Below are positions 161-32,427 of a DNA stretch of 37,404 nt, in pieces. Positions within the stretch are counted from its first letter, which is position 1. Each line of letters starts with the position of its first letter. The notes beneath the pieces are model-generated. The model was not told the DNA's origin, did not search any database, and saw only the letters and a program-made list of their open reading frames with translations. Source of the stretch: an uncultured Gemmiger sp. (GTDB taxonomy: Bacteria; Bacillota; Clostridia; Oscillospirales; Ruminococcaceae). Location: the NCBI GenBank assembly GCA_944388135.1, contig CALXHP010000012.1, positions 1 to 37,404 of the forward strand. The letters run 5' to 3'. The position numbers and the translations under genes are program-made.

Positions 161-194
161 AATTTCTTCGGTTCCTTCTTTATAAAGAAGGAAC
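161..194 (-). repeat. 3'-UTR palindrome element, copy 1
   Basis: The palindrome at 171-194 (GTTCCTTCTTTA-type half, perfect apart from the central TA) lies 7 bases beyond the stop codon of the minus-strand gene at 202-681. Read in gene sense it is followed by the tail CGAAGAAATT. No CGCAGGG-core terminator follows this copy. It belongs to the same family as the copies at 19912, 20125, 25748, 25834, 30114, 30276, 30382 and 32388. Confidence 0.75.
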
Positions 195-201
195 AAGGAG
201 A

Positions 202-681
202 TCACGGCACCTTGTGTTCCTTGGCGGTCCAGGCGTCCACCCGCAGGCAGAACACCGTGGTGGCCCGGAGCATGGCCGGGTCCACCGTCCAGTCGGCGCG
301 GCGGGTGTAGTGGGCCATGATGCAGTTCAGCCCGTGGAGCTTGGCGGCGTCGTCGGCGGGGATCTCCACCCGGCCCCGGCCCATGACGCTGCGGTAGGCA
401 AAGGTGTATTCCTCCGCCTTGGACCCCGGCACCAGGCGGTGACCGGTATCCATCTCGAAACTGGCCAAAAGATTCTTTTGCAGCAGCGCAATCTTCTTTC
501 CCGCCGAGGCACCGTGGAACCAGAGGACCAGCCGGCCGTCCTGTTCCTCCCAGCCGAAATTCAGCGGCAGGATGTAGGCAAGGCCCTCCTCATCCACCAA
601 CCCCAGCCGGCAGCAATCACACTCCGTCAGGATCTTTTGCATGGCCGCCCCATCGGTAACTTCCCGGTCTTTTCTGCGCAT
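202..681 (-). CDS. Pyridoxamine 5'-phosphate oxidase-fold (NimA-like) protein
   Basis: This 159-residue protein begins MRRKDREV. It has the split-barrel pattern of small PNPOx/NimA-like flavoproteins: a short helix with CDCCRLGLVDEEGLAYILPL, a strand reading LVLWFHGASAGKKIALLQKN, then SFEMDTG and YRSVMGRGRVEI. Such proteins bind FMN, F420 or heme, and the substrate cannot be read from sequence. I chose the ATG at 681 because GGAAAGGAAG at 691-700 gives a good ribosome site; starts further upstream would run into the likely promoter at 719-747. The gene stands alone and is divergent from the lipoprotein gene at 861. A 3'-UTR palindrome follows its stop. The fold is fairly certain, the reaction unknown. 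Confidence 0.8.
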   Translation of the reverse strand: MRRKDREVTDGAAMQKILTECDCCRLGLVDEEGLAYILPLNFGWEEQDGRLVLWFHGASAGKKIALLQKNLLASFEMDTGHRLVPGSKAEEYTFAYRSVMGRGRVEIPADDAAKLHGLNCIMAHYTRRADWTVDPAMLRATTVFCLRVDAWTAKEHKVP

Positions 682-718
682 GGTGTACAACTTCCTTTCC
701 TGTGGAAAACTTGCTTCC

Positions 719-747
719 ACTATACCACACCGGCCGTGGGGCTGCAA
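719..747 (-). promoter_or_regulatory. Putative sigma-A promoter for the PNPOx-like gene
   Basis: On the minus strand TTGCAG (742-747) and TATAGT (719-724) are separated by 17 bases. The expected start lies about 30 bases before the ATG at 681. Confidence 0.55.
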
Positions 748-860
748 GCATGGGCAGAAGATACAATTTAATTTACACCCTTTTGTGCACCTCGTACATT
801 GCAGCCCCGCCCGGTCTGCCTGTATACTGAAAATACATTCCGGAAAAGGAGGACTGTACC

Positions 861-1574
861 GTGAAAAAACTGCTGCCCGCCCTCTGCCTGCTGCTGGCCC
901 TTACCGCCTGCACCCGCCCTGCCCCGGCACAGACCCCGCCGGAAACCGCCGAGTCCGCCGACGCCACCGCCGCTGTCACCCTCGACCTGGCGGCCTATAC
1001 CGATGCCGCCCAGGGGGACGTCCTTTCCGGCGATCCCCGGTTTTTCCTGGACGAGGCTTTGACCCAACAGATGAACATCACCGAAACGACTTCCAGCGGC
1101 GCCCGGGTCACCTATACGGTGGCGGTGCCCGCCGGTACCGCCGACCTGTATATGGTCCCGCCCCAGCTCTGCCTTACCGAGGAGGTGGAGGAACAGTCCG
1201 CCCCCGCCAAGGGCGACCAGGACCTGGGGGACTTCCGGGTGGAGAGCGTGGAACTGGAAAACGGCACAGACCTGGAACTGGTGGTGAAGATCGACCCCGC
1301 CAGCGCTGCCTTCCCCGAAAACCTTCACCTGCAGATGGACGGGATGTACTATACCGGCGGCCACAGCCGCCGGATGGAGTGGGGTGACGACCAGGTGACC
1401 CATGTGAAAGAGTGGGCGGTCTCCTTCACCATGAAGGGCTCGGTGGCCGAAGCCGAAAAGGCGCTGGAAACCGCCACCCTCCACTGGAGCCAGCTCAGCC
1501 GGTATGTCCAGCCCCAGGACCTGCCCTGCACCGCCGACGGGGTGACCGTCCACCCCGTGAACCCCGGCGCCTGA
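861..1574 (+). CDS. Uncharacterised lipoprotein
   Basis: The 237-residue product starts with GTG at 861, supported by AAAGGAGG at 845-852. It has a classic lipoprotein signal peptide: positively charged MKK, a hydrophobic run, and lipobox LTAC with the lipidated cysteine at residue 17. An Ala/Pro/Glu-rich linker follows, then a soluble domain predicted to sit outside the membrane. I do not recognise the domain. It contains a run of alternating hydrophobic strands (for example VTYTVAVPAGTADLYMVP and LELVVKIDPASAAF), suggesting a beta-rich fold. The gene is followed by its own terminator and is therefore probably monocistronic. No neighbour suggests a function. Confidence 0.8.
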   Translation: MKKLLPALCLLLALTACTRPAPAQTPPETAESADATAAVTLDLAAYTDAAQGDVLSGDPRFFLDEALTQQMNITETTSSGARVTYTVAVPAGTADLYMVPPQLCLTEEVEEQSAPAKGDQDLGDFRVESVELENGTDLELVVKIDPASAAFPENLHLQMDGMYYTGGHSRRMEWGDDQVTHVKEWAVSFTMKGSVAEAEKALETATLHWSQLSRYVQPQDLPCTADGVTVHPVNPGA

Positions 1575-1601
1575 CCTGTCCTGACCTGTATAGTCCCTTT
1601 C

Positions 1602-1634
1602 CGCCCGCCCCGGCAACCCCGGGGCGGGCGTTTG
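1602..1634 (+). terminator. Rho-independent terminator after the lipoprotein gene
   Basis: A very GC-rich stem, CGCCCGCCCCGG (1602-1613) pairing with CCGGGGCGGGCG (1619-1630), is followed by TTTGT. It ends the transcript of the lipoprotein gene. Confidence 0.7.
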
Positions 1635-1650
1635 TGCTGCCTGGCAATTC

Positions 1651-1680
1651 TTGACATTTTTCCACTTTTTGTCGTATAAT
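1651..1680 (+). promoter_or_regulatory. Strong sigma-A promoter for the alpha/beta hydrolase
   Basis: TTGACA at 1651-1656 and TATAAT at 1675-1680 are both perfect consensus hexamers with an 18-base spacer. It shows that translation cannot begin at the in-frame TTG at 1651. Confidence 0.9.
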
Positions 1681-1722
1681 TTTCCTCGGCTCCCCTTGGG
1701 GGAGGGAAAGGAAAATAAGGAA

Positions 1723-2730
1723 ATGGAAACTGCAATCAAACCCAAAACCGGTACCCGCTGGCTGCGCCGGGCGCTGGTGGCCCTGGCGGTGCTGGTGGTA
1801 CTGCTGGCGGCAGCCATCGGCTTTGGCAGCAACTATCTGGTGGAATACGCCATCGGCCGCAGCGGCGACGGCGGCGACCGGGAGGTGGCCCTGGAAGTGG
1901 AACCCGGCGGCGACACGGTGGAAGCCACCATCGCCGCCAACAAGGCCGCCCAGAAAGAACGCAACGAGGCCTTCGCCGCCGCCCACCCCGGCGAACGGGT
2001 GGAGGTGACCTCCGACGACGGACTGACCCTCTCCGGCGTTTACTACGCCAACGACGGCCACCGGTGGGTCATCGCCCTCCACGGCTACCGGGGCAGCAGC
2101 CAGGACTCCCTGCGGTTGGCCCAGCCCTACTATGAGGAGGGCTTCCAGGTGGTGATGCCCGACCTGCGGGCCTGCGGCGAAAGCCAGGGCGACTATGTGG
2201 GAATGGGCTGGCTGGACCGGATGGATGTGCTGGACTGGATCGACTGGATCGTGGCCCGGGACCCCCAGGCTGCCATCGTGGTCCACGGCATGTCCATGGG
2301 AGCCGCCACCACCATGATGACGGCGGGGGAGGACACCCCCGACAACGTCCGCGCCTTTGTGGAGGACTGCGGCTACACCAGCGTGTGGGATGTCTTTTCC
2401 AGCGAGCTGCAGCTGCGGTTCGGGCTGCCGGAATTCCCCCTGCTCTACACCGCCAGCGCCCTGGCCGATGCCAAGGCGGGGTACAACTTCCGGGAGGCTT
2501 CCGCCCTGGACCAGGTGGCCCGGTGTGAAAAGCCCATGCTTTTCATCCACGGCACCGCCGACGACTTCATCCCCTATGAGATGATGGACACCCTCTACAG
2601 CGCCAAACCCGGCGACAACAAAGCGGAGCTTACCGCCGAGGGTGCCGGCCACGGGGAGGCTATGTACGCCCTGGGCCAGACCTACTGGGATACCGTTTTT
2701 GCCTTTGTGGACCCCTGCCTGGAGGGGTGA
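1723..2730 (+). CDS. Membrane-tethered alpha/beta hydrolase
   Basis: The 335-residue protein has an N-terminal membrane anchor (about residues 14-36, ALVALAVLVVLLAAAIGFGS) and a serine-hydrolase domain resembling the S33/BAAT-type hydrolases common in clostridia. The nucleophile elbow is GMSMG with Ser191. The acid is probably Asp280 or Asp281 in HGTADDF, and the base is His310 in GAGHGE. The strand ending in HGYRGSS supplies the oxyanion region. The catalytic domain should face outward. The ATG at 1723 is chosen because the longer reading frame would start inside the -35 hexamer; TAAGG and GGAGGGAAAGG lie just upstream. The substrate is unknown; esterase or peptidase activity is plausible. 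The gene has its own promoter and terminator. Confidence 0.88.
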   Translation: METAIKPKTGTRWLRRALVALAVLVVLLAAAIGFGSNYLVEYAIGRSGDGGDREVALEVEPGGDTVEATIAANKAAQKERNEAFAAAHPGERVEVTSDDGLTLSGVYYANDGHRWVIALHGYRGSSQDSLRLAQPYYEEGFQVVMPDLRACGESQGDYVGMGWLDRMDVLDWIDWIVARDPQAAIVVHGMSMGAATTMMTAGEDTPDNVRAFVEDCGYTSVWDVFSSELQLRFGLPEFPLLYTASALADAKAGYNFREASALDQVARCEKPMLFIHGTADDFIPYEMMDTLYSAKPGDNKAELTAEGAGHGEAMYALGQTYWDTVFAFVDPCLEG

Positions 2731-2738
2731 CAGACCCT

Positions 2739-2772
2739 GCCCCTGCCTGCCCGGCGGGGGCCCTTTTGTTTT
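2739..2772 (+). terminator. Terminator after the alpha/beta hydrolase
   Basis: GCCCCTGCC (2739-2747) pairs with GGCGGGGGC (2753-2761) and is followed by CCTTTTGTTTT. It separates the hydrolase from the sigma-factor operon. Confidence 0.65.
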
Positions 2773-2846
2773 CCGGCAAAAAAACGAAAAAAGCTGCTCA
2801 CTTTGGGGGTGGCCGGTCGTTATACCTTATGAACGGTGGTGAAAGG

Positions 2847-4084: not shown

Positions 4085-4100
4085 CCGAAGGAGGAACACC

Positions 4101-8837: not shown

Positions 8838-11033
8838 TCAGCGGCGGTGATAATGACCGCTGCCGCCGGACTTTTTGCGGGAAACAGCTACGGCCACACC
8901 GGTGAGCACGGCCAGGGCCGCTGCGCCCCCTGCCACCGGCAGAACGGGGAAGCCGCCCTCCTGGTCCTCCTCATTGGGAGGTACGGTGGGAATGGGCCGC
9001 TGGGTAGGTTCCGGGGTGGGTTCCGGCGTAGGCGTGGGTGTGGGGGTTGCCGTGGGCTCCGGGGTGGGGGTGGCTTTGGCGGTGCCGCTGCCTTTGCTCC
9101 CCGAACCGCTGCCCGAACCGGAAGCGCTGCCGCTCTGGGCTGCGGCCACGGTGGGGTCCACGTTCCATTTGGCGTAGATGGTGGTGTCCTTCACCAGCAC
9201 GATGGTGCCCACCGGCTGGGTCAGGGCTTCGTCGGCATACCACCCTGCGAAGAGGTAGCCCGTCCGCACCGGGGTGTAGGGCCACAGCTCCACCGGGGCA
9301 CCCAGACCGAACCGCACATCCTCCAGGGGCAGGCCGCCCATGGTGTTGAAATGGAGGGTGTGCATCTCCAGCGGGGTGGGTTTGGGGGTAGGACTGGGGG
9401 TGGGTACCGGCGTGGGAACGGGTGTGGGGGCCGGCGTCACCACCGGTGTGGGGGACGGTGTGGGGGTCGGGGTCGCCGTGGGGGTCGGTGTGGGGGTCGG
9501 TGTGGGGGTCAGATGCCAGTGGGCGTACAGGGTGGCGGAAGCGGAAAACACCGTGTCCTCCGTCACCGGGGTGCCGCCCTCCTTCTCGGTGAACCAGCCG
9601 TCAAAGGTGTAGCCCTTCCGGGTGGGGGTGGGCAGAGAGGCCACGACCCCCTGTTGGGTGACGGCGGAAGTCGGGGTGACGGTGCCGCCGTTGCAGTCCA
9701 GGAAGAGGCGGTATTCGGTGACGAAGTCATCGGGCAGGTCCCCGGACACCCGGCCGTCGTGGGCCAGCAGGAAGGTGCCGGTGCCGGTGAGGCTGCCGGT
9801 TTTTCCCAGGGTCAGAAGGGCGCCGTCCAGTTCCAGGGTGCCGTCCTGGGTCAGGGTGCCCCCGTTGGTGCTCTCGGTGTCGGTGAGGATCAGGGTGCCG
9901 GTGTTGGTCAGGGTCCCCCGGTTGTCCAGGGTACCGTCGGTGAGGGCCAGGCTGCCCTGGTTGTCCAGGGTGCCGGTGTTGGTCAGGGCGGCGCCGGCCA
10001 GGGTCATGGTACCGGTGTTTTCCGCCACGGCGCCGGTGACCAGCTGGAAGTCGCTGCCCTGGAAGGTCAGGGTGCCCCCGTTGTCCAGCCGGGAAGCAAC
10101 GCCGCTGGTATAGGAGCCGCCCAGTTCCAGGGTGGCCCCCTTGGCCACCGTCAGGGTGCCGTTGTTGTTGAGCCCGGCGGGGACCCGGAGCGTGCCCTTC
10201 ACGGTGAGGGCGGCCCCGGGGTTGAGGAAGAGGGACTGGGTCAGGGCCAGGTCCTGGGAGAGGGTGACACTGCCGTAGACCGAGGCGATGGAATTGCTCA
10301 CAAAGAGGCCGCTCCACAGGGAGGTGTCGTCGTTGTCACCGATGGTGTCGGCGTAGAGGATGGCGCTGCCCTGGCTGCCGGTGGAGAAGGTACCGTGGTG
10401 GGTGCAGCCGGAACCGCCGCCGATGTCAGCCACGCCGGGACCGCCCCAGGCGGAGACGGTACCGCTGTTCACCGTGAGGGAGCCAGGGTCGGCGGTGTTG
10501 GTGCCGGAGGCGGTGGGGTCCTGGGCGTTGCCGCCGATGCCCGCGGCGCCCCGGCCGCCGGTGGCGGTAAGACTGCCGGGACCGTGGATGGTCAGGTCGG
10601 CGCCCTCGGGCAGGCAGAGCCCCGCATAGCCCTTGGCGCTTTGCAGGGTGCTGTCGCCGGTAAGGTCCAGCTCCAGGGTGGCCCCCGGTTCCAGGGCAAA
10701 GGCGGCCCCGGTGGTGCAGTTCAGCTGCACATCCTCCAGGGTAATGGTGCCGGTATAGCCGTCGGCCACCAGGATGGAGGCGTCTACCGGGTCGCTGCCG
10801 GTGGAGGTCACCGTCAGGTCCCCTTTCAGAAGGGTGAGAACGTTGGTGGCGGTATCAAAGGTGTAGTTCCGGCCCTGGGTGCCGCCGGTAACGGTGAGGG
10901 GCGGGGCGACCCGCACAATGGCGGAGCCGCTGGGGGTAAAATCCCACAGGGCGGCGGCGGGCAGGGCAGCGGCGGTACTGAGCGCAGCGCCGGCAAGCAG
11001 CAGCGCCAGGGTGCGGCAGATGGTTCGTTTCAT
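8838..11033 (-). CDS. Large secreted surface protein with InlB B-type repeats
   Basis: The 731-residue protein has a signal peptide ([20 protein letters not shown], cleavage near residue 30). A long repetitive beta-rich region follows (about 40-440) with turns such as [20 protein letters not shown], suggesting a beta-helix adhesin. Two InlB B/Listeria-Bacteroides repeats lie at about 444-506 ([14 protein letters not shown]) and 556-624 ([15 protein letters not shown]). Each is followed by a Pro-Thr linker, the first about 48 residues long. A C-terminal helix (about 694-717) and basic tail [14 protein letters not shown] anchor it. There is no LPXTG sortase motif, only FPVLPVAGG, so it probably stays as a membrane anchor. 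The ATG at 11033 has AAAGGGGG upstream. A role in adhesion is inferred. Confidence 0.85.
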
Positions 11034-19127: not shown

Positions 19128-19910
19128 ATGGCATTATTGGAAGTGGCCGGCATCGGCAAAAGCTTCGGCAGTACCGCCGTGCTGCGGGATATCTCCTTTA
19201 CCCTCAACGAAGGGGAGGCCATCGCCATCATCGGGTCGTCGGGCTCCGGCAAGACCACCTTGCTGCGCTGCCTGAACTTTCTGGAGACGGCGGACACCGG
19301 CTCCATCACGGTGGGGGGCGAGACGCTGTGGAGCGCCGACGACATCCACACCCAGAGCGAGGCGGCCATCCGGAAAAAGCGGCTCCATTTCGGGCTGGTG
19401 TTCCAGAACTTCAACCTTTTCCCCCAGTATACGGCTTTGCAGAACGTCATGCTGGCGGAACAGCTGCTGGCCAAGGAACGCCCCGACTACAAACAGCACA
19501 AAAAGGAAATCCTGGCGGAGATCGAGGCCCATGCCCGGGAACTGCTGGCCGATATGGGCCTGTCCGACCGGGCGGGGCATTATCCCCACCAGCTGTCCGG
19601 CGGACAGCAGCAGCGGGTGGCCATCGCCCGGGCCCTGGCCCTGAAACCGGATATCCTCTGTTTCGACGAGCCCACCTCGGCCCTCGACCCCGAACTCACC
19701 GGGGAGGTGCTGCGGGTCCTGCGGGACCTGGCGGCCAACAAGACCACCATGATCATCGTCACCCATGAGATGAAGTTCGCCCGGGATGTGGCGGACCGCA
19801 TCCTCTTCATGGACGGCGGCGTGGTGGTGGAACAGGGCCCCGCCAAGGAGGTCATCGACCATCCCAAGGAGGAGCGCACCCGGCAGTTTCTGGCAAGTTA
19901 CGGGAAATGA
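19128..19910 (+). CDS. Amino-acid ABC transporter ATP-binding protein (system 2)
   Basis: The 260-residue GlnQ-type ATPase has Walker A GSSGSGKTT, Q-loop FGLVFQNFNLF, signature LSGGQQQR, Walker [15 protein letters not shown] and switch His in VTHEMKFA. An insert of about 15 residues rich in Lys and Glu (KERPDYKQHKKEILAEIEAH) sits between the Q-loop and the signature, as in many clostridial members. The stop is followed one base later by a 3'-UTR palindrome copy and a terminator. Confidence 0.95.
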   Translation: MALLEVAGIGKSFGSTAVLRDISFTLNEGEAIAIIGSSGSGKTTLLRCLNFLETADTGSITVGGETLWSADDIHTQSEAAIRKKRLHFGLVFQNFNLFPQYTALQNVMLAEQLLAKERPDYKQHKKEILAEIEAHARELLADMGLSDRAGHYPHQLSGGQQQRVAIARALALKPDILCFDEPTSALDPELTGEVLRVLRDLAANKTTMIIVTHEMKFARDVADRILFMDGGVVVEQGPAKEVIDHPKEERTRQFLASYGK

Positions 19911-19911
19911 T

Positions 19912-19947
19912 GTCCTTTCTTTACAAAGAAAGGACCAAAGAAATTCC
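19912..19947 (+). repeat. 3'-UTR palindrome element, copy 2
   Basis: A perfect-arm palindrome, GTCCTTTCTTTA-type half plus its complement (19912-19935), begins one base after the stop of the importer 2 ATPase. The tail CAAAGAAATTCC follows. A bidirectional terminator stands five bases further on. Confidence 0.8.
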
Positions 19948-19951: not shown

Positions 19952-19983
19952 AAAAAGGCATGGTCCATGACCATGCCTTTTTT
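19952..19983. terminator. Terminator after importer 2
   Basis: AAAAAGGCATGG (19952-19963) pairs with CCATGCCTTTTT (19971-19982), followed by further T. The A-run makes it work on both strands. The region 19984-20084 beyond it shows no gene and no clear signal. Confidence 0.88.
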
Positions 19984-20084: not shown

Positions 20085-20120
20085 TACCCCGCAGGGTATC
20101 GCCCTGCGGGGTACTTTTTA
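20085..20120. terminator. CGCAGGG-core terminator, thioredoxin side
   Basis: TACCCCGCAGGG (20085-20096), loop TATCG, CCCTGCGGGGTA (20102-20113) flanked by A and T runs. Its core is shared with the hairpins at 25788 and 30154. In minus-strand sense it follows the palindrome copy after the thioredoxin gene. Confidence 0.85.
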
Positions 20121-20124
20121 TGAG

Positions 20125-20158
20125 AGTTTCTTCGGTTCCTTCTTTGCAAAGAAGGAAC
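20125..20158 (-). repeat. 3'-UTR palindrome element, copy 3
   Basis: The perfect 24-bp palindrome (GTTCCTTCTTTG plus its complement, 20135-20158) lies 9 bases past the stop of the minus-strand thioredoxin gene. In gene sense the tail CGAAGAAACTCTCAT follows, then the CGCAGGG-core terminator at 20085. Confidence 0.85.
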
Positions 20159-20167: not shown

Positions 20168-20479
20168 TCACAGCACGCCGTTCAGCCACTGCATCAGGGT
20201 GGGCTTGGGCATGAAGCCCACCTGGCGGGCCACCGGCTGGCCCTTCTTCAGGACCACCAGGGCCGGGATGCTGGAAATGCCGAACTGCTGGGCCAGGGCC
20301 AGGTTCTCGTCCACGTCGATGCCGTAGAAGAGTGCCTTGCCCTCCAGGTCCTGGCTGGCGGATTCCAGCACGGGGGCCAGCATCTTGCAGGGATTGCACC
20401 AGGTGGCGTTGAAATCCAGCACCGCCACGTCGGCGGCCAGGGCCTGGGTCAGATCATTTTTGTGCACTTCGTGTACCAT
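20168..20479 (-). CDS. trxA: Thioredoxin
   Basis: The 103-residue protein has the thioredoxin fold and length. The active site is WCNPCK with Cys28 and Cys31, where the usual Gly-Pro is replaced by Asn-Pro. The cis-proline is in SSIPALVVLKKGQPV. It reduces disulfides in cytoplasmic proteins using electrons from a reductase, very likely the protein encoded 6 bases upstream. AAAGGAG precedes the ATG at 20479. The altered CNPC dipeptide should shift the redox potential compared with CGPC; that is inference. The two genes form an operon ended by the palindrome-terminator element. Confidence 0.92.
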   Translation of the reverse strand: MVHEVHKNDLTQALAADVAVLDFNATWCNPCKMLAPVLESASQDLEGKALFYGIDVDENLALAQQFGISSIPALVVLKKGQPVARQVGFMPKPTLMQWLNGVL

Positions 20480-25203: not shown

Positions 25204-25746
25204 ATGAGCAAGCTGAATGAATTTATGGAGATCCTTACCGGACATTTCAACAACAAGGCCCAGTACGAGGCCAAGAAAGGGGAGAACTTCCCCTATGCGG
25301 AGCATGTGAACACCGCCTGCAACGACAAGATCACCGGGCTGCCCGCCGATTTTGCGGGGGTGTTTATGGTGGAGGAGAGTTATTTTTCCGCCAACGGCAC
25401 CACCCATGCGGCGCCCCATCTCTTTCTCTTCACCGAGCAGGAGGGCGGCGTGCTGCTGACCAGCTACGACCTGCCCGCGGGCTACGACAAGGACAGCTTC
25501 ACCTATGAGAACCTGAAGCCGGTGGCCTATGCCGACCTGAAACCCTCGGCCAAGTTCACCCCGGCCCTCTACCGGGAGAAGGACGGCGTCTGGGAGGGCG
25601 GCAGCGTGTCGATGTTCAGCCCGGTGCTGAAGTTCACCCTCTTTGAACGGTTCAGCAAGGATGTGCTGGAAGTGTCCGAGAGCATGGAGGTCAACGGCAA
25701 ACGCACCTTCGGCTACGACGAACCTATCCTCTACAAGCGGGCTTGA
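25204..25746 (+). CDS. Uncharacterised 180-residue protein, faint CpcT/CpeT likeness
   Basis: The product is soluble, acidic to neutral, without signal peptide or membrane helix. The N-terminal part FMEILTGHFNNKAQYEA, then FPYAEHVNT, GLPADF and FMVEESYF recalls the F-(S/N)-N-x-x-Q ... P-x-A-x-x ... L-P ... E-E-x-Y order of CpcT/CpeT bilin-lyase-fold proteins. The likeness is weak and a bilin role in this organism would be surprising, so I treat the function as unknown. AGAAAGGGG precedes the ATG at 25204. It is monocistronic, driven by the operator-bearing promoter at 25089, and its stop is followed one base later by a palindrome copy. Confidence 0.75.
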   Translation: MSKLNEFMEILTGHFNNKAQYEAKKGENFPYAEHVNTACNDKITGLPADFAGVFMVEESYFSANGTTHAAPHLFLFTEQEGGVLLTSYDLPAGYDKDSFTYENLKPVAYADLKPSAKFTPALYREKDGVWEGGSVSMFSPVLKFTLFERFSKDVLEVSESMEVNGKRTFGYDEPILYKRA

Positions 25747-25747: not shown

Positions 25748-25783
25748 GTTCCTTCTTTGCAAAGAAGGAACCGAAGAAATTCC
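25748..25783 (+). repeat. 3'-UTR palindrome element, copy 4
   Basis: The perfect 24-bp palindrome (25748-25771) begins one base after the stop at 25746, followed by CGAAGAAATTCC and the shared terminator at 25788. Confidence 0.85.
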
Positions 25784-25787: not shown

Positions 25788-25826
25788 AAAAATCCCTCGC
25801 AGGGAATTACCCTGCGGGGGATTTTT
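25788..25826. terminator. CGCAGGG-core bidirectional terminator
   Basis: AAAAATCCCTCGCAGGG (25788-25804), loop AATTA, and CCCTGCGGGGGATTTTT (25810-25826) end two converging genes. Palindrome copies flank it on both sides in mirror orientation. Confidence 0.9.
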
Positions 25827-25833
25827 GATTAGA

Positions 25834-25866
25834 GTTCTTTTGGTTCTTTTCTTGCAAGAAAAGAAC
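25834..25866 (-). repeat. 3'-UTR palindrome element, copy 5
   Basis: A variant palindrome, GTTCTTTTCTTG plus its complement (25843-25866), lies 12 bases past the stop of the aminopeptidase gene on the minus strand. The tail in gene sense is CAAAAGAACTCTAAT. The same variant occurs at 30114. Confidence 0.85.
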
Positions 25867-25878: not shown

Positions 25879-27666
25879 TTACCGGCCGATGGGAGCGCAC
25901 TTCTTGGCCAGCCAGGCTTTCTCCTCGTCGGTCAGGCGGGGGGCCAGGGTCTCATAGACATGCTGGTGGAAGTTGTTCAGCCAGTCGATCTGTACCCGGG
26001 ACAGTTCATCCACGATCACCGGGGTGGTGTCGATGGGCACCACGGTCAGGGGGGTGAAGCCCAGCCAGTGGCCGTACTGGTTGTCGCCCAGGTCGATGCA
26101 CTCCAGCTCGTTCTCGATGCGGATGCCCACCTCGTCGGTCTCATAGATGCCCGGCTCGTCGGTGATGGTCATGCCCGGCTTGAAGATCACCGGGTTGTTG
26201 GGCCGCAGACTCTGGGGGCCTTCATGGACGCCCGAGATGAAGCCCACGCCGTGGCCGGTGCCGCAGCGGTAGTTCACCTTGTGGGCCCAGACCGGACCCC
26301 GGGCAAAGGTATCCAGGGCAAAGCCGGTGCAGTAATCCAGGAACACCGCCCGGGCCATGTCGATGTGGCTCTGGAGCACCCAGGTGTAGTACTTGCGCTC
26401 GTCCTCGGTGAGGGGGCCTACCGGATAGGTCCGGGTGATGTCGGTGGTGCCGCAGTCATACTGGCCGCCGTTGTCCACCAGCAAAAAGCCCTTGCGCTCG
26501 ATCTTGCTGTTGACCTCCCCTTCGGCATGATAGTGCATCATGGCCGCGTTGGGACCCCAGGCCGCAATGGTGGAGAAGCTGTCCTCCAGATAGCCCGGCT
26601 GCTCGGCCCGGCGCTTCTGGAGCATCTTCTCGATGTCGGTCTCGTAGAGCTCCTGGCCTTCCGCCAGGGCTTTCTCCAGGTCCATCTCAAACCGGACCAC
26701 GGCTACGCCATCCCGGATATGGCATTCCCGGATATTCTCAAGCTCCACCGCATTCTTCACGCCCTTCAGGGCAAAGATGGGGTCGGTGCCCGCCACCGTC
26801 TTGTAGGCGGAAAGGCCATTATAAAGGTCATAGTTGGTGGCCTTCTCGTCCACCAGGAAGACTTCCCCGGCATCCACCTTGCTCACGGCGTCCAGCAGGT
26901 CGGTGTAGCCCCGGACGGCCACCCCGTTCTCCGCCAGGGTGGCGGCGTCCGCCTCGCTCAGACGGCCCGGCGCTACAAAGAGGGTGGCGTCCCGGGAAGT
27001 AACCAGAGCATAGGCCACCGCCAGCGGGGTGCAGGGCAGGTCCCGGGCCCGCAGGTTCAGCAGCCAACCCACGCAGTCCAGCCCGGTGACGGCCAGCGCC
27101 GTGGCACCGGCCTTGGCCAGCTCGCCGCGCACCCGGGCGATCTTCTCCGCCGCCGCGGCACCGGTCTGGGCGGTGGTCAGCAGCTCACAGGGGGTATCCG
27201 GCAGGGAAGGACGCTCGCCGGAAGCATCCCAGATGGGGCTGGCCACATCCTGGCTCTTCAGGGAAGCTCCCTTCTTGGCCAGCACGGCGGTGTACTCGTG
27301 GGCCAGGTCGGCGGGCACGCAGCTGCCGTCCAGCAGCAGGGTCTGGCCTTCGGTCATATGGTCGGCCAGGTACTCCGCCACGGTGGGCACCCCGGCGGAA
27401 CCGGCGTGCATGCATTCAATTTCGGTGCCTGCCAGCTGCTTGTCTGCCTGGACATAGAACCGGCCGTCACACCAAAGGGCGGAACCCTCCTGGGTCACCA
27501 CCAGGGTGGAGTTTTCCCCGGTAAAGCCGGAGAACCAGGGCAGCGCATTGTAGTAGGCGGGCAGATACTCGCTGCAATGGGGGTCACTGGTCATAAGCAA
27601 TACGGCGTCTGCGCCCGCGGCTTTGGCGGCGGCGCGCAGCGCGGCGATTTTTTCATTGGTCGTCAA
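25879..27666 (-). CDS. M24B aminopeptidase P (Xaa-Pro aminopeptidase)
   Basis: The 595-residue enzyme has the three-domain form of long aminopeptidase P. Two creatinase-like N-terminal domains come first (ALRAAAKAAGADAVLLMTSD, FSGFTGENSTLVVTQEG, LWCDGRFYVQADKQL). The catalytic pita-bread domain has metal ligands in LLVDNGGQYDCGTTDITRTY (two Asp), GTGHGVGF (His), TDEPGIY and GIRIENELE (two Glu). It removes the first residue from peptides with proline in second place, in the cytoplasm. The ATG at 27666 follows GAGGGAGTG. It is monocistronic, with a promoter at 27701-27728 and a palindrome-terminator element after its stop. Confidence 0.95.
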   Translation of the reverse strand: MTTNEKIAALRAAAKAAGADAVLLMTSDPHCSEYLPAYYNALPWFSGFTGENSTLVVTQEGSALWCDGRFYVQADKQLAGTEIECMHAGSAGVPTVAEYLADHMTEGQTLLLDGSCVPADLAHEYTAVLAKKGASLKSQDVASPIWDASGERPSLPDTPCELLTTAQTGAAAAEKIARVRGELAKAGATALAVTGLDCVGWLLNLRARDLPCTPLAVAYALVTSRDATLFVAPGRLSEADAATLAENGVAVRGYTDLLDAVSKVDAGEVFLVDEKATNYDLYNGLSAYKTVAGTDPIFALKGVKNAVELENIRECHIRDGVAVVRFEMDLEKALAEGQELYETDIEKMLQKRRAEQPGYLEDSFSTIAAWGPNAAMMHYHAEGEVNSKIERKGFLLVDNGGQYDCGTTDITRTYPVGPLTEDERKYYTWVLQSHIDMARAVFLDYCTGFALDTFARGPVWAHKVNYRCGTGHGVGFISGVHEGPQSLRPNNPVIFKPGMTITDEPGIYETDEVGIRIENELECIDLGDNQYGHWLGFTPLTVVPIDTTPVIVDELSRVQIDWLNNFHQHVYETLAPRLTDEEKAWLAKKCAPIGR

Positions 27667-27700
27667 TCTTCAACACTCCCTCGTATTTTGGCTTGACTTC

Positions 27701-27728
27701 ATCATACCACGTTTTACTAAAAGGTCAA
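27701..27728 (-). promoter_or_regulatory. Promoter of the aminopeptidase gene
   Basis: On the minus strand TTGACC (27723-27728) and TATGAT (27701-27706) are 16 bases apart. CTTGAC/GTCAAG half-sites at 27692-27697 and 27725-27730 form a wide inverted pair around it. Confidence 0.65.
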
Positions 27729-27796
27729 GCGGGCACAATATTTGCAAAAAGTTCAAAAAAACAGCGGCCAAAAGGGCCGAAACCCCTTGACGCGTT

Positions 27797-27805
27797 TGTT
27801 ATAAT
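27797..27805 (+). promoter_or_regulatory. Extended -10 promoter of the CobW gene pair
   Basis: TGTTATAAT has an extended -10 (TG-n-TATAAT, hexamer 27800-27805). No good -35 is present at the right distance. I see no obvious Zur-type box. Confidence 0.5.
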
Positions 27806-27869
27806 GGTATTAGCAGTTAGTTTGTGCGACTGCCAGAACCAACCAATTCAGCGAAACAGAGGTGCCATC

Positions 27870-29072
27870 ATGGCAGAGAATAAGACCAAAATCGATATTT
27901 TTTCCGGCTTTCTGGGCGCAGGCAAGACTACGCTCATCAAGAAACTGATCCAGGAGTGCTTCGCCGGGGAGCGCATCGTCCTGATCGAAAATGAATTCGG
28001 CGAGATCGGCATTGACGGCGGCTTCATGCGGGAAGCGGGCATCCAGGTCAATGAGCTGAACTCCGGCTGCATCTGCTGCTCCCTGGTGGGCGACTTCCGG
28101 GAGGCCCTGAAGCAGGTGGTGGAGACCTACCACCCCGACCGCATCCTCATCGAGCCCTCCGGCGTGGGCAAGCTGTCCGACGTGACCCGGGCTGTGGAAG
28201 GCGTCGCCGAGACCCTGCCGGTCATCCTGAACAGCTTTGTCACGGTGGCCGACGTGAACAAGGTCAAAATGTATATGAAGAACTTCGGCGAGTTCTACGA
28301 TGACCAGGTCAGCCATGCTTCCTGCATCATCCTGAGCCGCACCGGCAACACCAGCGAGAAGAAGATCTCCGACGCCGTGGCCCTGCTCACCGAGAAGAAC
28401 CCCACCGCCACCATCGTCACCACCGACTGGACCGCCCTCTCCGGCGCCCAGATCGTCTCGGTCATGGACGGCAAGCGGGACCTGGTGGCCGAGCTGCTGG
28501 ACCAGGCCCGGGCCGCCAACGAGGCCCATGCCGGTGAGGAGGAGCATCATCACCACCATCATCATCACCATGAGGACGGGGAGGAGCACGAGTGCTGCCA
28601 CCATCACGACCATGATGAGGACGAGGAACACGAATGCTGCCATCATCACGACCATGACCATGAGGAGGGCGAATGCTGCCATCATCATGACCATGACCAC
28701 GAGGACCACGAGTGCTGCGGCCATGACCATCACCACGAGCACCACTATGACGAGCACGGCGTATGCAGCTGCGGCCATCATCACCACGACCACGACGCCG
28801 ACGAGGTGTTCACCAGCTGGGGACGGGAGACGGCCCACAAGTTCAGCCGGGCGGCCCTGGAAGAGGCCCTCACCAAGCTGGACGGCGGCGACTACGGCAT
28901 GATCCTGCGTGCCAAGGGCATCGTGGACGGCGGAGCCGACGGCTGGCTGGAATTCGATATGGTCCCCGGCGAGCACGAGATCCGCACCAGCACCCCCGAT
29001 GTCACCGGCAAGCTCTGCGTCATTGGCTCCCAGCTGAAAGAGGCCGACCTGGCCACCCTGTTCGGCCTGTAA
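27870..29072 (+). CDS. CobW-family GTPase with large His/Cys metal-binding insert
   Basis: The 400-residue G3E GTPase has Walker A GFLGAGKTT (residues 13-21), the zinc-binding CICC (Cys67, 69, 70) and a C-terminal CobW_C domain. Between them, about residues 220-313, lies an insert made almost only of His, Asp, Glu and Cys. It holds a run of nine His and repeats of the type HECCHHHDHD. Members of this family are metallochaperones, usually for zinc; the insert suggests high-capacity metal storage or delivery. The ATG at 27870 follows AGAGGTG. It is followed after 54 bases by a second GTPase, forming an operon. The target protein is unknown. Confidence 0.92.
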   Translation: MAENKTKIDIFSGFLGAGKTTLIKKLIQECFAGERIVLIENEFGEIGIDGGFMREAGIQVNELNSGCICCSLVGDFREALKQVVETYHPDRILIEPSGVGKLSDVTRAVEGVAETLPVILNSFVTVADVNKVKMYMKNFGEFYDDQVSHASCIILSRTGNTSEKKISDAVALLTEKNPTATIVTTDWTALSGAQIVSVMDGKRDLVAELLDQARAANEAHAGEEEHHHHHHHHHEDGEEHECCHHHDHDEDEEHECCHHHDHDHEEGECCHHHDHDHEDHECCGHDHHHEHHYDEHGVCSCGHHHHDHDADEVFTSWGRETAHKFSRAALEEALTKLDGGDYGMILRAKGIVDGGADGWLEFDMVPGEHEIRTSTPDVTGKLCVIGSQLKEADLATLFGL

Positions 29073-29126
29073 GCGCGCAAAGAGGGGAACCGTCCCGGCG
29101 GCGGTTGCAACAGAAAGGATAGTACT

Positions 29127-30104
29127 ATGGCAAGACAGATTCCGGTCTACCTGTTTGTAGGCCAGCTGGAGAGCGGCAAGACCAAGTTCATCCAGGAGAC
29201 GATGGAGGACCCCCAGTTTGATTCCGGCGACAAGACGCTGCTGCTGGTCTGCGAGGAGGGCGAGGAAGAGTACGACCCCGACCGCTTCGCTTTCGGCGGC
29301 GTCCATGTGGCCCAGCTGGAGGACAAGAGCGAGCTGAACAAGGAAAACCTCACCGCCCTGGAGAAGAAATCCGGCTGCGGGCGGGTCATCATTGAATACA
29401 ACGGCATGTGGCTGATCCAGGACCTGTACGACGCTATGCCGGACAACTGGCTGGTCTACCAGTGCCTGGCCACGGCGGACGGCACCACCATCAAGACCTA
29501 CGCGGGGGACAACGCCATGCGGTCCCTCTTGCTGGACAAGCTGCGGGGCAGCGAGCTGCTGGTGGTGAACCGGGCCGAGAAGGTCAACGACGAGGAGAGC
29601 CGCCAGCTCATCCACAAGCTGGTGCGCCAGGCCAGCCGCCGCTGCGACATCGCCTATGAGTTTGCCGACGGCAGCGTGGCCTACGACGATATTCCCGACC
29701 CGCTGCCCTTCGACGTGAACGCCCCGGTCATCGAGATCCCCGAGGAATTCTTCGGCATCTGGTATATGGACTGCATGGACGACGCCAAGAAATACGACGG
29801 CAAGACGGTGAAATTCCTGGCCCAGGTCTGCCAGACCAACCGGGCAGGCAAGAACAGCTTTGTGCCCGGCCGGTTCGCCATGACCTGCTGCGTGCAGGAC
29901 ATCCAGTTTGTAGGCTTCCCCTGCAAGTACGACGATTACAAGAACCTGGAACAGCGCAGCTGGATCACCCTGACCGCCAAGGTCAATGTGAAATATCACC
30001 CCATCTACAAGGGCCAGACCCCCGATTCCACCGGCCCGGTGCTCACCGCCCTGAAGGTGGAGCCCGGCGAAAAGCCCAAGGACGACGTGGTCATGTTCAG
30101 CTGA
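29127..30104 (+). CDS. CobW-like GTPase fused to a YcgQ/DUF1980-like domain
   Basis: The 325-residue protein begins MARQIPVYLFVGQLESGKTK, a P-loop (GQLESGKT) with a noncanonical Leu-Glu. Parts like VIIEYNGMW and SELLVVNRAEKV correspond to the GTPase core (Asn-Arg in place of NKxD). It lacks the CxCC zinc motif. From about residue 207 a new domain starts (KTVKFLAQVCQTNRAGKN, FVPGRFAMTCCVQDIQFVGF; Cys254-Cys255). This matches the C-terminal part of YcgQ/TIGR03943 proteins, which pair with the YcgR permease. Neither permease nor full YcgQ is in the window. Co-occurrence with the His-rich CobW suggests joint work in metal handling, which is inference. A palindrome element follows the stop. Confidence 0.82.
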   Translation: MARQIPVYLFVGQLESGKTKFIQETMEDPQFDSGDKTLLLVCEEGEEEYDPDRFAFGGVHVAQLEDKSELNKENLTALEKKSGCGRVIIEYNGMWLIQDLYDAMPDNWLVYQCLATADGTTIKTYAGDNAMRSLLLDKLRGSELLVVNRAEKVNDEESRQLIHKLVRQASRRCDIAYEFADGSVAYDDIPDPLPFDVNAPVIEIPEEFFGIWYMDCMDDAKKYDGKTVKFLAQVCQTNRAGKNSFVPGRFAMTCCVQDIQFVGFPCKYDDYKNLEQRSWITLTAKVNVKYHPIYKGQTPDSTGPVLTALKVEPGEKPKDDVVMFS

Positions 30105-30113
30105 ACGGGGACC

Positions 30114-30150
30114 GTTCTTTTCTTGCAAGAAAAGAACCAAAAGAACTCTC
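30114..30150 (+). repeat. 3'-UTR palindrome element, copy 6
   Basis: GTTCTTTTCTTG plus its complement (30114-30137) starts 9 bases past the stop of the GTPase fusion gene. The tail is CAAAAGAACTCTCAT, and the CGCAGGG-core terminator comes next. Confidence 0.85.
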
Positions 30151-30153
30151 ATA

Positions 30154-30192
30154 AAAAATATCCCGCAGGGATTTTCCCTGCGGGATATTTTT
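30154..30192. terminator. CGCAGGG-core terminator after the GTPase pair
   Basis: AAAAATATCCCGCAGGG (30154-30170), loop ATTTT, and CCCTGCGGGATATTTTT (30176-30192). The core is the same as at 20085 and 25788. Confidence 0.92.
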
Positions 30193-30198
30193 CTTGGG

Positions 30199-30414
30199 AT
30201 TTCTTCGGCTCTTCCTGGCAAAAAGGGGCGGGGCCGTCGTGGTTCCGGGATTGCCCATGCCCGGTTGAAAGATTGGATTTCTTCGGTTCTTTCTTTGTAA
30301 AGAAGGTTTTTCCCCGTGCCGCCCGGTGGGGGCGAGGCCGCTGTGGTTCCGGGATCGCCCATGCCCGGTTGAAAGATTGGAATTTCTTCGGTTCCTTCTT
30401 TGCAAAGAAGGAAC
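30199..30414 (-). repeat. Tandem ~105-bp repeat with decayed palindromes (copies 7-8)
   Basis: ATTTCTTCGG recurs at 30199, 30277 and 30382. The block GGTTCCGGGAT-CGCCCATGCCCGG (first at 30241, again at 30345) and GTTGAAAGATTGG recur with a 104-105-base offset. The palindrome is degenerate near 30209 and 30286 and perfect at 30391-30414. Orientation is minus, yet no minus-strand gene ends here, so these copies are orphaned. Confidence 0.75.
30382..30414 (-). repeat. 3'-UTR palindrome element, orphan copy
   Basis: A perfect 24-bp palindrome (30391-30414) with the tail in minus sense CGAAGAAATTCCAATC. There is no gene ending at its right side, where only the DnaA-box-like region follows. It is either a relic of a lost minus-strand gene or a transposed copy. 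Confidence 0.8.
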
Positions 30415-30458
30415 AAGGGTGTTCATATCCTGTACACAAAGTGTATATTTCAGGGCGG

Positions 30459-30607
30459 TTATCCACTGCGTAAAGGGGTTATCCACGTTGAAATTGTGGA
30501 AAACTCTGTGGAAACCGTGGAAAACTACCCCGGTTTTTCTGTTGAAACTGTGGAAAACCCGGTGGAAAGCTTGCCGCAGAGCGATTTGGCTTCCAAAGTT
30601 TTCCACA
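30459..30607. promoter_or_regulatory. Cluster of DnaA-box-like sites
   Basis: Eight 9-mers close to the DnaA box TTATCCACA (reverse TGTGGATAA) lie within 150 bases. Forward: TTATCCACT (30459), TTATCCACG (30479), TTTTCCACA (30599). Reverse type: TGTGGAAAA (30495 and 30549), TGTGGAAAC (30507), CGTGGAAAA (30516), GGTGGAAAG (30561). Two GTTGAAA(T/C)TGTGGAAAAC units start at 30488 and 30541. No dnaA or dnaN gene is in the window, so it is more likely a DnaA-binding regulatory or titration site than the chromosomal origin. Confidence 0.55.
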
Positions 30608-30635
30608 GCGGGGCAGTGGAGGCGGGGGACCCGGC

Positions 30636-30664
30636 TTGACAAGGCCGTGGTATCTGTGTACAAT
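30636..30664 (+). promoter_or_regulatory. Promoter of scfA-scfB
   Basis: TTGACA (30636-30641) and TACAAT (30659-30664) are 17 bases apart, just after the DnaA-box-like cluster. The leader before the ATG at 30703 is about 30 bases. Confidence 0.85.
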
Positions 30665-30702
30665 AAGAATAATCCAAAATTGTGCAAAGGAGTGACTGTT
30701 GT

Positions 30703-30849
30703 ATGAAGCACATTCAGACCCTCGAGACCCGCGATATGGTGAAGAGCCTCCAGAACGGCGGCTGCGGTGAATGCCAGACCTCCTGCCAGAGCGCCTGCAA
30801 GACCAGCTGCGGCATCGCCAACCAGCCCTGCGAGAAGGCTGAGAACTGA
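30703..30849 (+). CDS. scfA: SCIFF ribosomal peptide precursor
   Basis: This 48-residue peptide begins MKHIQTLETRDMVKSLQNGG and has six cysteines, at positions 21, 24, 28, 32, 36 and 43, in the arrangement CGECQTSCQSACKTSC. This is the hallmark of SCIFF (six cysteines in forty-five residues), a near-universal clostridial RiPP precursor. The radical-SAM partner forms thioether links from Cys to nearby residues, known for the Clostridium thermocellum pair. The first 20 residues act as the leader. AAAGGAGTG precedes the ATG. The maturase gene follows 81 bases downstream beyond a weak terminator, so the peptide should be made in excess. The role of the mature peptide is unknown. Confidence 0.96.
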   Translation: MKHIQTLETRDMVKSLQNGGCGECQTSCQSACKTSCGIANQPCEKAEN

Positions 30850-30870
30850 TTTTTTCCCATCTGGCAATCG

Positions 30871-30904
30871 TGCCGGGCTGCCCGTGCGGCGCCCGGCATT
30901 TTCT
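30871..30904 (+). terminator. Weak terminator/attenuator between scfA and scfB
   Basis: TGCCGGGC (30871-30878) pairs with GCCCGGCA (30891-30898), then TTTTCT. It probably lowers scfB expression relative to scfA. Confidence 0.6.
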
Positions 30905-30930
30905 ATGGCTGTTTTACAAGGAGTTTTTCC

Positions 30931-32385
30931 ATGATCCATCAATACAAACTGGGCGGTTACAACATCGTGCTGGACGTGTTCAGCGGCAGCGTCCATGCCG
31001 TGGATGACGTGGCCTACGATGCCATCGCCCTCATCGACCAGGGCAAGAGCCGGGAGGAAGCGGCCGCGGCCCTGGAGAAGAAATACGCCGGCCGGCAGGA
31101 CGTCACCCCCGCCGACATCCAGGACTGCCTGGACGACATCGACGAGCTGACCAAGGAGGGCAAGCTCTTTGCCCCCGACGCCTACGCCGACCATGCCTTT
31201 GATTTCAAGAACCGGTCCAACGTGGTGAAGGCTCTCTGCCTCCATGTGGCCCATACCTGCAACCTGAATTGCAGTTACTGCTTCGCCGCCCAGGGCAAGT
31301 TCCACGGCGAGGCCGGCCTCATGAGCTTCGAGACCGGCAAGCAGGCCCTGGATTTCCTGGTGGCCCATTCGGGCACCCGGCGCAATCTGGAGGTGGACTT
31401 CTTCGGCGGCGAACCGCTGATGAACTTTGAGGTCTGCAAGCAGCTGGTGGCCTATGCCCGCAGCATCGAGAAGGAAGCGGGCAAGAATTTCCGGTTCACC
31501 CTGACCACCAACGGCATCGGCATCACCGACGAGGTCATTGAGTGGGCCAACAAGGAGTGCTACAACGTGGTGCTCTCCCTGGACGGCCGCAAGGAAGTGA
31601 ACGACCGGTTCCGGGTAGACCTGGCGGGCAACGGCAGCTATGACCGCATCGTGCCCAAGTTCCAGAAGCTGGTCAAGGCCCGGGGCGGCAAGGGCTATTA
31701 CATGCGGGGCACCTTTACCCACCACAACGTGGATTTCACCAACGATCTCTTCCATATGGCGGACGACCTGGGCTTTACCGAGCTGTCCATGGAACCGGTG
31801 GTGGCCTCCCCCGATTCCCCCGAAGCCCTCACCGAGGAGGACCTGCCCAAGCTGTTTGACCAGTACGAGCTGCTGGCCAAGGACATGCTCCGCCGCCAGA
31901 AGGCGGGCAAGCCCATCACCTTCTACCATTACATTCTGGACCTGAAGCACGGCCCCTGCATCTACAAGCGGATCTCGGGCTGCGGGTCCGGCACCGAGTA
32001 TATGGCCGTTACCCCCTGGGGCGATCTCTATCCCTGCCACCAGTTCGTGGGCGACCCCGACTACAAGCTGGGCAACGTCTGGGACGGCGTGACCAACACC
32101 GCCCTGCGGGATGAGTTCAAGCTCTGCAACGTCTATGCCCGCCCCGACTGCAAGGATTGCTGGGCACGGCTCTACTGCGCGGGCGGCTGCGCGGCCAACG
32201 CCCTCCACGCCACCGGCGACATCCACGGTACCTACGAGTACGGCTGCAAGGTATTCCGCAAGCGGATGGAATGCGCCCTGATGATCCAGGTGGCCCAGCG
32301 CCTCGACCCCGAACTGGCCCGCAACGCCGTGCAGTATGAAAGCGACTGCGACGGCTGCGGCGAAACCAAGGACGCCTGCGACTGA
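30931..32385 (+). CDS. scfB: SCIFF maturase, radical SAM/SPASM protein
   Basis: The 484-residue enzyme carries an N-terminal peptide-recognition domain (about residues 1-95: YKLGGYNIVLDVFSGSVHAV, DIQDCLDDIDEL). The radical SAM core has the cluster motif CNLNCSYC (Cys110, 114, 117), and FFGGEPLMNFE. A SPASM domain binds further iron-sulfur clusters (SGCGSGTEYMAVTPWGDLYPC, CKDCWARLYCAGGCAANAL, then YGCKVFRKRMECAL). It uses S-adenosylmethionine to install thioether cross-links in the SCIFF peptide. Length and order match the known SCIFF maturases. It is in operon with scfA. The stop codon is followed two bases later by a diverged palindrome copy. Confidence 0.96.
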   Translation: MIHQYKLGGYNIVLDVFSGSVHAVDDVAYDAIALIDQGKSREEAAAALEKKYAGRQDVTPADIQDCLDDIDELTKEGKLFAPDAYADHAFDFKNRSNVVKALCLHVAHTCNLNCSYCFAAQGKFHGEAGLMSFETGKQALDFLVAHSGTRRNLEVDFFGGEPLMNFEVCKQLVAYARSIEKEAGKNFRFTLTTNGIGITDEVIEWANKECYNVVLSLDGRKEVNDRFRVDLAGNGSYDRIVPKFQKLVKARGGKGYYMRGTFTHHNVDFTNDLFHMADDLGFTELSMEPVVASPDSPEALTEEDLPKLFDQYELLAKDMLRRQKAGKPITFYHYILDLKHGPCIYKRISGCGSGTEYMAVTPWGDLYPCHQFVGDPDYKLGNVWDGVTNTALRDEFKLCNVYARPDCKDCWARLYCAGGCAANALHATGDIHGTYEYGCKVFRKRMECALMIQVAQRLDPELARNAVQYESDCDGCGETKDACD

Positions 32386-32387
32386 CC

Positions 32388-32427
32388 CCTACTTTCTTTG
32401 TAAAGAAAGTAGGCAAAGAAACTTTAA
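32388..32427 (+). repeat. 3'-UTR palindrome element, copy 9 (diverged)
   Basis: CCTACTTTCTTT and its complement (32388-32413), two bases after the scfB stop, with the tail CAAAGAAACTTTAACC. It is the first member of the tandem array that follows. Confidence 0.75.

Follow-up and report, generated by a model that had tools for sequence, protein, structure and literature searches.

The contig CALXHP010000012.1 of an uncultured Gemmiger sp. (assembly GCA_944388135.1, 82 contigs, of which this is C12) is 37,404 nt long and is called the window here. It carries a family of short repeats at gene ends, each made of a palindrome and a purine-rich tail. The tail is the mirror image of the purine arm of the palindrome. 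Such symmetry has no plain meaning for a hairpin or an ordinary protein site, yet it is the code of a purine-motif intrastrand triplex. The reading we favour, with somewhat more confidence than doubt, is that the element is an A/T-rich class II (purine-motif) intrastrand DNA triplex repeat of the PIT/TM kind. It probably works at the level of DNA, on displaced single strands at gene ends. The mirror rule, a code that links loop and tail, a rule that A words face B words, changed orientations of units, and clustering near the replication origin all go beyond the original prediction for this stretch.

A genome search with a covariance model built from the eight intact window copies, as proposed with that prediction, gave at least 43 matches at E<1e-5 in the assembly to which the window belongs, a count that includes the eight training copies. 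A profile scan of 1.58 Mb taken from six Gemmiger genomes gave 256 copies. For the tests of the mirror rule and the loop-tail code, 236 of these were kept (20 below 28 bits were dropped), and the removal of three further copies with no recognisable tail register left 233.

The copies fall into three types of word – arm and tail are AAAGAAG/GAAGAAA in type A, AAGAAAA/AAAAGAA in type B, and AAAGAAA/AAAGAAA in type C. The tail is a mirror of the arm, not an inverse-complement copy of it. In 81 of 87 distinct copies, tail positions k1–k7 match the reversed palindrome positions p14–p20 at all seven places. The summed mirror matches come to 596 of 609, while tails re-dealt among the palindromes gave a mean of 535.1 and a maximum of 550 (0 of 2000 reached the observed sum). 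Direct, non-mirror matching gave 7/7 in 43 copies and 5/7 in 38 of the 87; the type C tract is its own mirror, and is hence counted among the direct 7/7 matches. The triads are mostly T-A·A and C-G·G, and where an arm pair differs, the tail base differs along with it in nearly all copies (p20-k1, p17-k4, p16-k5). By eye, the rule also holds in relatives with other words: Faecalibacterium (AGAAAA/AAAAGA), G. formicilis An812 (AAAAG/GAAAA), and ATCC 27749 (AAAAGAAA/AAAGAAAA), with one mirror mismatch in the relative pair L275/L276.

In a purine-motif intrastrand triplex, the third strand runs antiparallel to the purine strand, and class II motifs are limited to C-G·G and T-A·A (or T) triads, a stem of at least 6, and loops of 1–6 nt (PMC4666352). 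The element has the class II order of pyrimidine arm, purine arm and purine third strand on one strand, with 7 triads in 81 of 87 distinct copies, a first loop of 2 nt, and a second of 5–6 nt.

Replication, or the passage of RNA polymerase at a gene end, would expose this strand as single-stranded DNA. It could then form a hairpin against which the tail folds back as a reverse-Hoogsteen third strand; we infer that such folding occurs in cells. Read in gene sense, the strand rich in purines is the non-template one. It is displaced by RNA polymerase and would be single behind it, which favours a role in pausing or insulation at the gene end: beside a terminator, the fold might pause or insulate polymerases. 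Unlike copies, an A with a B or at times a B with a C, face each other across a terminator hairpin and form a two-ended gene-end module of about 120 bp. The unlike end words would hinder end-to-end pairing of the unit and leave each end free to fold alone. The fold may also promote the local inversions and rearrangements described below, in which case the flips would be a by-product.

The TM_ECO element of E. coli forms a triplex in vitro; for bacterial intrastrand triplex repeats known so far there is in vitro support and no agreed function (PMC4666352). What this family adds is natural variation, with many copies whose hairpin arm, third strand and loop vary in concert. Should triplex formation be confirmed, the in vivo relevance of such structures would become directly testable in a system with a defined place (after stops, beside terminators), an A-with-B rule, and genomes with and without copies. 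The family also gives sites at which orientation changes can be counted.

Covariation of loop, tail and arms

The tail is followed by t1 T t3 t4. In each of the three types, t1 and t3 covary with the pair of bases at the palindrome centre. A loop centre of GC occurs with C or T at t1 and C at t3, AC with T and C, AT with T and T, and both GA and GT with C and T. Position p13 is C if and only if t3 is C in 212 of 215 distinct sequences (3 exceptions). The counts for p12/t1 are 150 for G/C, 37 for G/T, 25 for A/T, 2 for A/C, and 1 for G/A. In the within-type matrix, only two pairs internal to the palindrome rank above p13-t3, which is third; p12-t1 comes fifth when cores are compared (127 distinct) and twelfth when flanks are included. 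Both pairs beat 300 of 300 within-type permutations. Beyond the six genomes, a GA centre followed by CTTT, as the code predicts, was seen by eye at six places in five loci (L274–L277, and two in L051).

The order of the loop and tail bases is parallel, so a simple pseudoknot does not account for it, and an antiparallel loop/tail pseudoknot was rejected as clashing with the order of covariation. A tail that ran up the stem and over the loop would bring the loop-code bases together. The E. coli motifs of PMC4666352 (its Table 1), counted by hand, hint at a possible link between loop and third-strand end there too: 15 of 15 motifs whose loop ends are C..G have a G directly past the third strand, 4 of the 5 with T..A have a T in that place, and all 3 with T..T have a C.

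The original prediction held that the arms vary while pairing is kept, and this stands for three of five measures, which exceed all shuffles; the other two do not, and are given below. In the hairpin arms, 99.1% of cells are paired, the covariation score is 0.315 (0.127 in shuffles), and 44 cells have changed on both sides, compared to 9.7 in shuffles and to no more than 5 when the structure was slid. These values were obtained with a subset of 40 out of 67 distinct sequences, from which most C-type and truncated sequences had been removed. Quasi-palindrome correction could also keep arms alike without selection.

Placement at gene ends and on the chromosome

Gene distances are based on the gene calls of this analysis, not on official annotation. 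A same-sense stop lies from -6 to 30 nt ahead of the copy start in 135 of the 256 copies, and within 15 nt in 108; among random intergenic 24-mers (12,028 draws), 5.6% lie within 30 nt of such a stop and 3.0% within 15. The preference for stops that was predicted from the window holds across the six genomes, but the sense position at a stop is not universal – 121 copies have no same-sense stop within 30 nt, many of them the far, inverted end of a two-ended unit. Three copies fall inside a called gene. Within 30 nt, the tail side meets a stop in 5 copies and the palindrome side a gene start in 13. By profile, no copy is present in fourteen control stretches of 20 kb chosen outside the origin region. 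General palindromes at all gene ends were rejected as an account, since the long perfect extragenic palindromes of the control stretches look like plain terminators.

Neighbouring copies less than 400 bp apart (n=79) are facing in 63 cases, tandem in 16, and facing apart in none. Tight facing pairs, with an inner gap of at most 80 bp, number 36: 28 A/B, 6 B/C, 1 ?/B and 1 C/C, with no A/A or B/B among them. They derive from few loci in related genomes and are hence not independent. Stops stand at both ends in 16 of these units, at one end in 18, and at neither in 2, some of the units lying at contig ends. Copies adjoin terminator-like hairpins, and the tight pairs examined at sequence level enclose one. 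Sequences that by eye resemble insertion sequences (IS) split the terminator part of units at G000:C33:1-150, G000:C36:1-147 and L017:11500-11628; two assembly contigs end at such interruptions.

Eight sites have intact two-ended units in at least two genomes (hand count). The unit occurs in both orientations at three of them (an EF-G-like gene, 2731257 and 2744058) and at a fourth, 2938870, where it is also displaced. At 2744058 the whole unit is inverted, including the loop (GTGTTAC to GTAACAC), and the outer flanks are unmoved. At the gene that we take to encode an EF-G-like protein, the inversion takes in the flanks as well and lies between longer inverted repeats. G025 and G026, with 99.3% median protein identity, have opposite orientations at 2731257; the tails differ there as well, so replacement is possible. 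One gene, encoding a SCIFF-maturase-like protein, is on the opposite strand in G025, G026 and G034 relative to G000, with elements on both sides. These changed orientations and the inverted gene were seen at element loci, which may be more variable than other places.

G026 and G034 are closed genomes of 2.99 Mb and 3.24 Mb, with the best dnaA matches at 2,701,919 and 1,481,350. All 46 copies found in G026 lie from -272 to +405 kb of dnaA, and all 42 found in G034 lie from -269 to +348 kb (one of 43 rows was left out as the opposite-strand reading of one place). The profile scan of sampled stretches gave 48 and 46 copies with unchanged outer limits. Spacing within the origin sector is clumpy, and sampled GC skew broadly fits two chromosome arms.

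This clustering is not a general rule. In the sister genomes G007, G014 and G015, copies are at other genes than in the main group. Four copy-bearing genes of G007, of which three have the copy past the stop and one has it upstream, have best matches 0.77–1.17 Mb from the origin in G026 and 0.67–1.40 Mb in G034, distances that refer to the orthologues and not to positions in the sister genomes. The confinement thus belongs to one lineage; a universal origin rule fails in the sister group and was rejected, and the confinement is best read as local spread in one lineage. The site at the EF-G-like gene, in G026's sector, is common to G004, G007, G015 and the main group. A comparable situation is described for E. 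coli K-12, with origin-side clustering that is not reported for other strains or bacteria (PMC4666352).

The element was matched at E<=1e-7 in 14 of 35 Gemmiger genomes, with at least 26–45 matches per genome in eight of them. Only the best 150 first-look candidates of each genome were scored (of 532 in G026 and 629 in G034), and weak copies elsewhere could be missed. At the family level, with the best 25 candidates per genome and stricter filters, 6 of 247 genomes matched; these were G000, G026 and four of other genera with one match each. At the phylum level, with limited candidates per genome, the C-type core pattern was found in 3 of 398 genomes, the window's own included. A wide taxonomic spread was therefore rejected. 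No report of these Gemmiger elements was found in a literature search, most subscription papers being outside its reach.

Competing explanations and known repeats

Several observations weigh against the triplex reading. Purine triplexes rich in A·A-T are weaker than those of G·G-C, and the stretch here is only 7 triads long. In one distinct copy, a G in the tail stands over a T-A pair that is intact. The three types stem from few independent events; the result of the mirror test is therefore in part a count of shared descent, and its shuffle takes no account of relatedness. Two measures of arm pairing are not above shuffles: pairs with double changes (5, compared to 3.9; 126 of 500 shuffles as high) and pair types (9, compared to 10.3). 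There is no preference for leading or lagging strand (25/23 in G026, 22/24 in G034), and such a bias was rejected. The element looks dispensable, since 21 of the 35 Gemmiger genomes have no match at E<=1e-7 among the best 150 candidates each. In E. coli, footprinting in vivo did not reveal stable triplexes, E. coli PIT elements had neither promoter nor terminator activity, and a survey regarded 7-nt stems as likely by chance and G/C-rich motifs as more integral (PMC4666352).

The chief competitor, which we consider possible but unlikely, is a mobile or gene-converted terminator cassette resembling miniature inverted-repeat transposable elements (MITEs) or repetitive extragenic palindromes (REPs), with hairpins that serve the spread of the cassette, a mirror tail that is a recognition end, and no triplex role for the host. 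The two defined, unlike ends around a terminator hairpin are as expected of a cassette, and so are the occurrence of one terminator stem (GCCTGGGAGGG) at three G026 loci, the differing orientation of units between species, and the clustering of many copies in one lineage, with none found in 240 kb around dnaA of G010. Yet no target duplication or clean empty site was seen, the intergenic regions of G010 being too divergent to show one. Most sense sites are also shared: among 167 orthologous gene pairs of G026 and G034, 23 have a sense copy in both genomes, 4 in G026 only, and 0 in G034 only (126 have no copy in either, and 14 are mixed). No transposase belonging to the element was found in a search of the Y1/RAYT types, RAYT being the REP-associated tyrosine transposase. 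A RAYT-like gene and REPs with a GTAG tag do share the G026 sector, in keeping with a cassette, and RAYT is matched in 18 of the 35 Gemmiger genomes, G026 and G000 among them. It is not matched in the element-rich G003, G009, G025 and G034 (31–45 copies each; two of these assemblies are 82% and 88% complete). RAYT-driven REPs were rejected because of these four genomes and because the GTAG-REP is a different word.

The RAYT-like gene has 161 codons (L131:18430-18915; G026 2708430-2708915) and lies between genes that are presumably gyrB and gyrA. A match 94% identical to it is at G000:C33:2818-3297. GTAG-REP hairpins (GTAGGGCGGGGTCTTGACCCCGCC) occur inside and beside the G026 gene. In G026, the origin sector contains 19 of 19 exact GTAG-REPs, and for 14 an element copy is no more than 250 bp away; in G034, 9 of 10 are in the element sector and the tenth is at 1122035, about 359 kb from dnaA.

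In a more specific form of the triplex reading, which we regard as speculative, triplex hairpins whose A and B words cannot pair when facing would insulate terminators near the origin, where encounters of replication forks with transcription are most frequent, and the loop-tail code would be a tertiary contact.

A role in RNA, which the original prediction had raised as a stability or processing element, is less probable again and is not favoured. The hairpin would block 3' exonucleases, or bind an RNA-binding protein, at mRNA 3' ends ahead of the terminator. The sense orientation of 135 of 256 copies just past stops and the covariation of the hairpin would suit this, as would RNA folds of hairpin plus terminator, with z of -6.3 to -8.3 in three of four stretches and -2.2 in the fourth. 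However, the tail changes with the hairpin by mirror symmetry, which is superfluous for an RNA hairpin, and RNA reportedly does not form purine-motif triplexes (PMC4666352). Half of the tight units have a stop at one end only, and two have none. Rfam has no match in the window at gathering scores. Several G010 orthologues end in an ordinary terminator-like hairpin and no element (10 genes by eye, one of them a 37% identical paralogue).

A site for a ParB- or Noc-like protein that organises the origin domain, suggested by the 24-bp dyads and by copies that all lie within 405 kb (G026) and 348 kb (G034) of dnaA, is highly improbable, given the far orthologues of the sister-group genes, arms that change together (not required by a protein that reads each half), clumpy spacing, and no match of the element words, with up to 2 mismatches, to the parS or Noc consensus (TGTTTCACGTGAAACA/ATTTCCCGGGAAAT). 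Sites resembling parS are separate from the element, with one or two per genome in the sampled stretches. The parS-like sequence TGTTCCACGTGGAACA is at 2686485 and 2688584 in G026 and at orthologous places; it is present twice in each of five of the six genomes and once in G001, and the genes beside it are presumably noc, soj and spo0J.

Among known repeats, the triplex reading places the element closest in design to PIT/BoxC/TM_ECO of E. coli and other Proteobacteria, in which a single strand again carries pyrimidine arm, purine arm and purine third strand in this order (PMC4666352). TM_ECO likewise combines types A and B, in all five facing pairs of E. coli K-12; it is intergenic, its loci are unusually variable, and its K-12 copies are nearer the origin than the terminus (PMC4666352). 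The Gemmiger element differs in having an A/T-rich word and 7 triads rather than 9, and in standing directly past stops, whereas TM_ECO is more often upstream, at no set distance (PMC4666352). It also differs in being beside terminators, in the confinement of all copies found to the origin side in two closed genomes, and in the comparative evidence for its third strand. It is not TM_ECO/BoxC proper, as the consensus CCCTCNCCC N3-6 GGGNGAGGG N3 GGGNGAGGG is not present and the words here are GTTCCTTCTTTG and variants. The A/T-rich motifs of the ITxF triplex database, compared through their description in PMC4666352, are formally of the same class; that paper gives A/T-rich and 7-nt motifs less weight, and here they make up a conserved multicopy family.

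REP/REPIN sequences with RAYT are similarly short extragenic palindromes in many copies and facing pairs (PMC3733652, PMC8266576). The original prediction's term 'REP-like' fits to that extent, but inspection of the words and flanks showed no GTAG/CGTC tag beside the hairpin, and the four element-rich genomes named above have no RAYT match. In Neisseria and Haemophilus, inverted pairs of uptake signals act as terminators. This is also mentioned in PMC2267715. Such pairs resemble the Gemmiger element in being inverted and downstream of genes; here, in contrast, the words vary with pairing kept, and the terminator is a hairpin of its own that lies between the copies.

Copies and other features of the window

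All seven copies in the original prediction were found to have a palindrome and a sense tail, each behind a same-sense stop of a different gene, at distances of 7, 1, 9, 1, 12, 9 and 2–4 nt in coordinate order (the last depends on where a 26-nt palindrome is cut). A Pfam family was found for six of the seven preceding genes, and none for 25204–25746. An eighth intact copy and decayed copies at about 30271, 32496 and 32601 had been missed. The motif RAAGAAAYTYY occurs 7 times in the window, compared to 0.09 expected from shuffles – five listed copies, the eighth copy, and one decayed copy. Both B-type tails fall outside it.

The first copy, type A with centre AT, is at 171–194 (-), past the stop of a PNPOx-like gene (202–681, -), with its third-strand tail CGAAGAAATTTT at 159–170 (-). 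A C-like palindrome (GTCCTTTCTTTA, centre AC) is at 19912–19935 (+), behind an ABC ATPase gene (19128–19910). Its tail CAAAGAAATTCC is at 19936–19947 (+), and a terminator-like hairpin, seen also in the RNA fold, follows at 19952–19982 (+). The type A palindrome at 20135–20158 (-) lies past a thioredoxin gene (20168–20479, -), with the tail CGAAGAAACTCT at 20123–20134 (-). Beside it, at 20085–20113, is a strand-neutral terminator-like hairpin whose CGCAGGG/CCCTGCG core recurs in the hairpins at 25788 and 30154, as had been predicted.

Two copies do face each other around one shared terminator. The left end of this A-terminator-B unit is a type A palindrome at 25748–25771 (+), with the tail CGAAGAAATTCC at 25772–25783 (+). 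The right end is a type B palindrome at 25843–25866 (-), with the tail CAAAAGAACTCT at 25831–25842 (-), past an M24 peptidase gene (25879–27666, -). The shared terminator-like hairpin at 25788–25826 is strand-neutral and present in the RNA fold.

A second type B palindrome is at 30114–30137 (+), past a CobW-domain gene (29127–30104). It has the tail CAAAAGAACTCT at 30138–30149 (+) and a strand-neutral terminator-like hairpin at 30154–30192, again with the RNA fold. A decayed copy at 30271–30310 (-; 26.8 bits) is in the composite between this copy and the eighth one, a type A palindrome at 30391–30414 (-) with the tail CGAAGAAATTCC at 30379–30390 (-). The eighth copy is not behind a stop; it is the far end of the composite, upstream of a cysteine-rich peptide gene (30703–30849) that is presumably SCIFF-like. 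This gene is followed by its radical-SAM partner (30931–32385, SCIFF maturase-like), the two spanning 30703–32385. The type C palindrome CCTACTTTCTTTG/TAAAGAAAGTAGG comes next at 32388–32413 (+), with the tail CAAAGAAACTTT at 32414–32425 (+).

The remaining decayed copies, at 32496–32533 (+) and 32601–32638 (+), are one in each of two 105-bp tandem repeats, 91% alike, at 32423–32632. Low-complexity repeats also occur within called genes of the window, as GTGGGG-rich and His/Cys-rich tracts (9002–9509 and 28514–28806).

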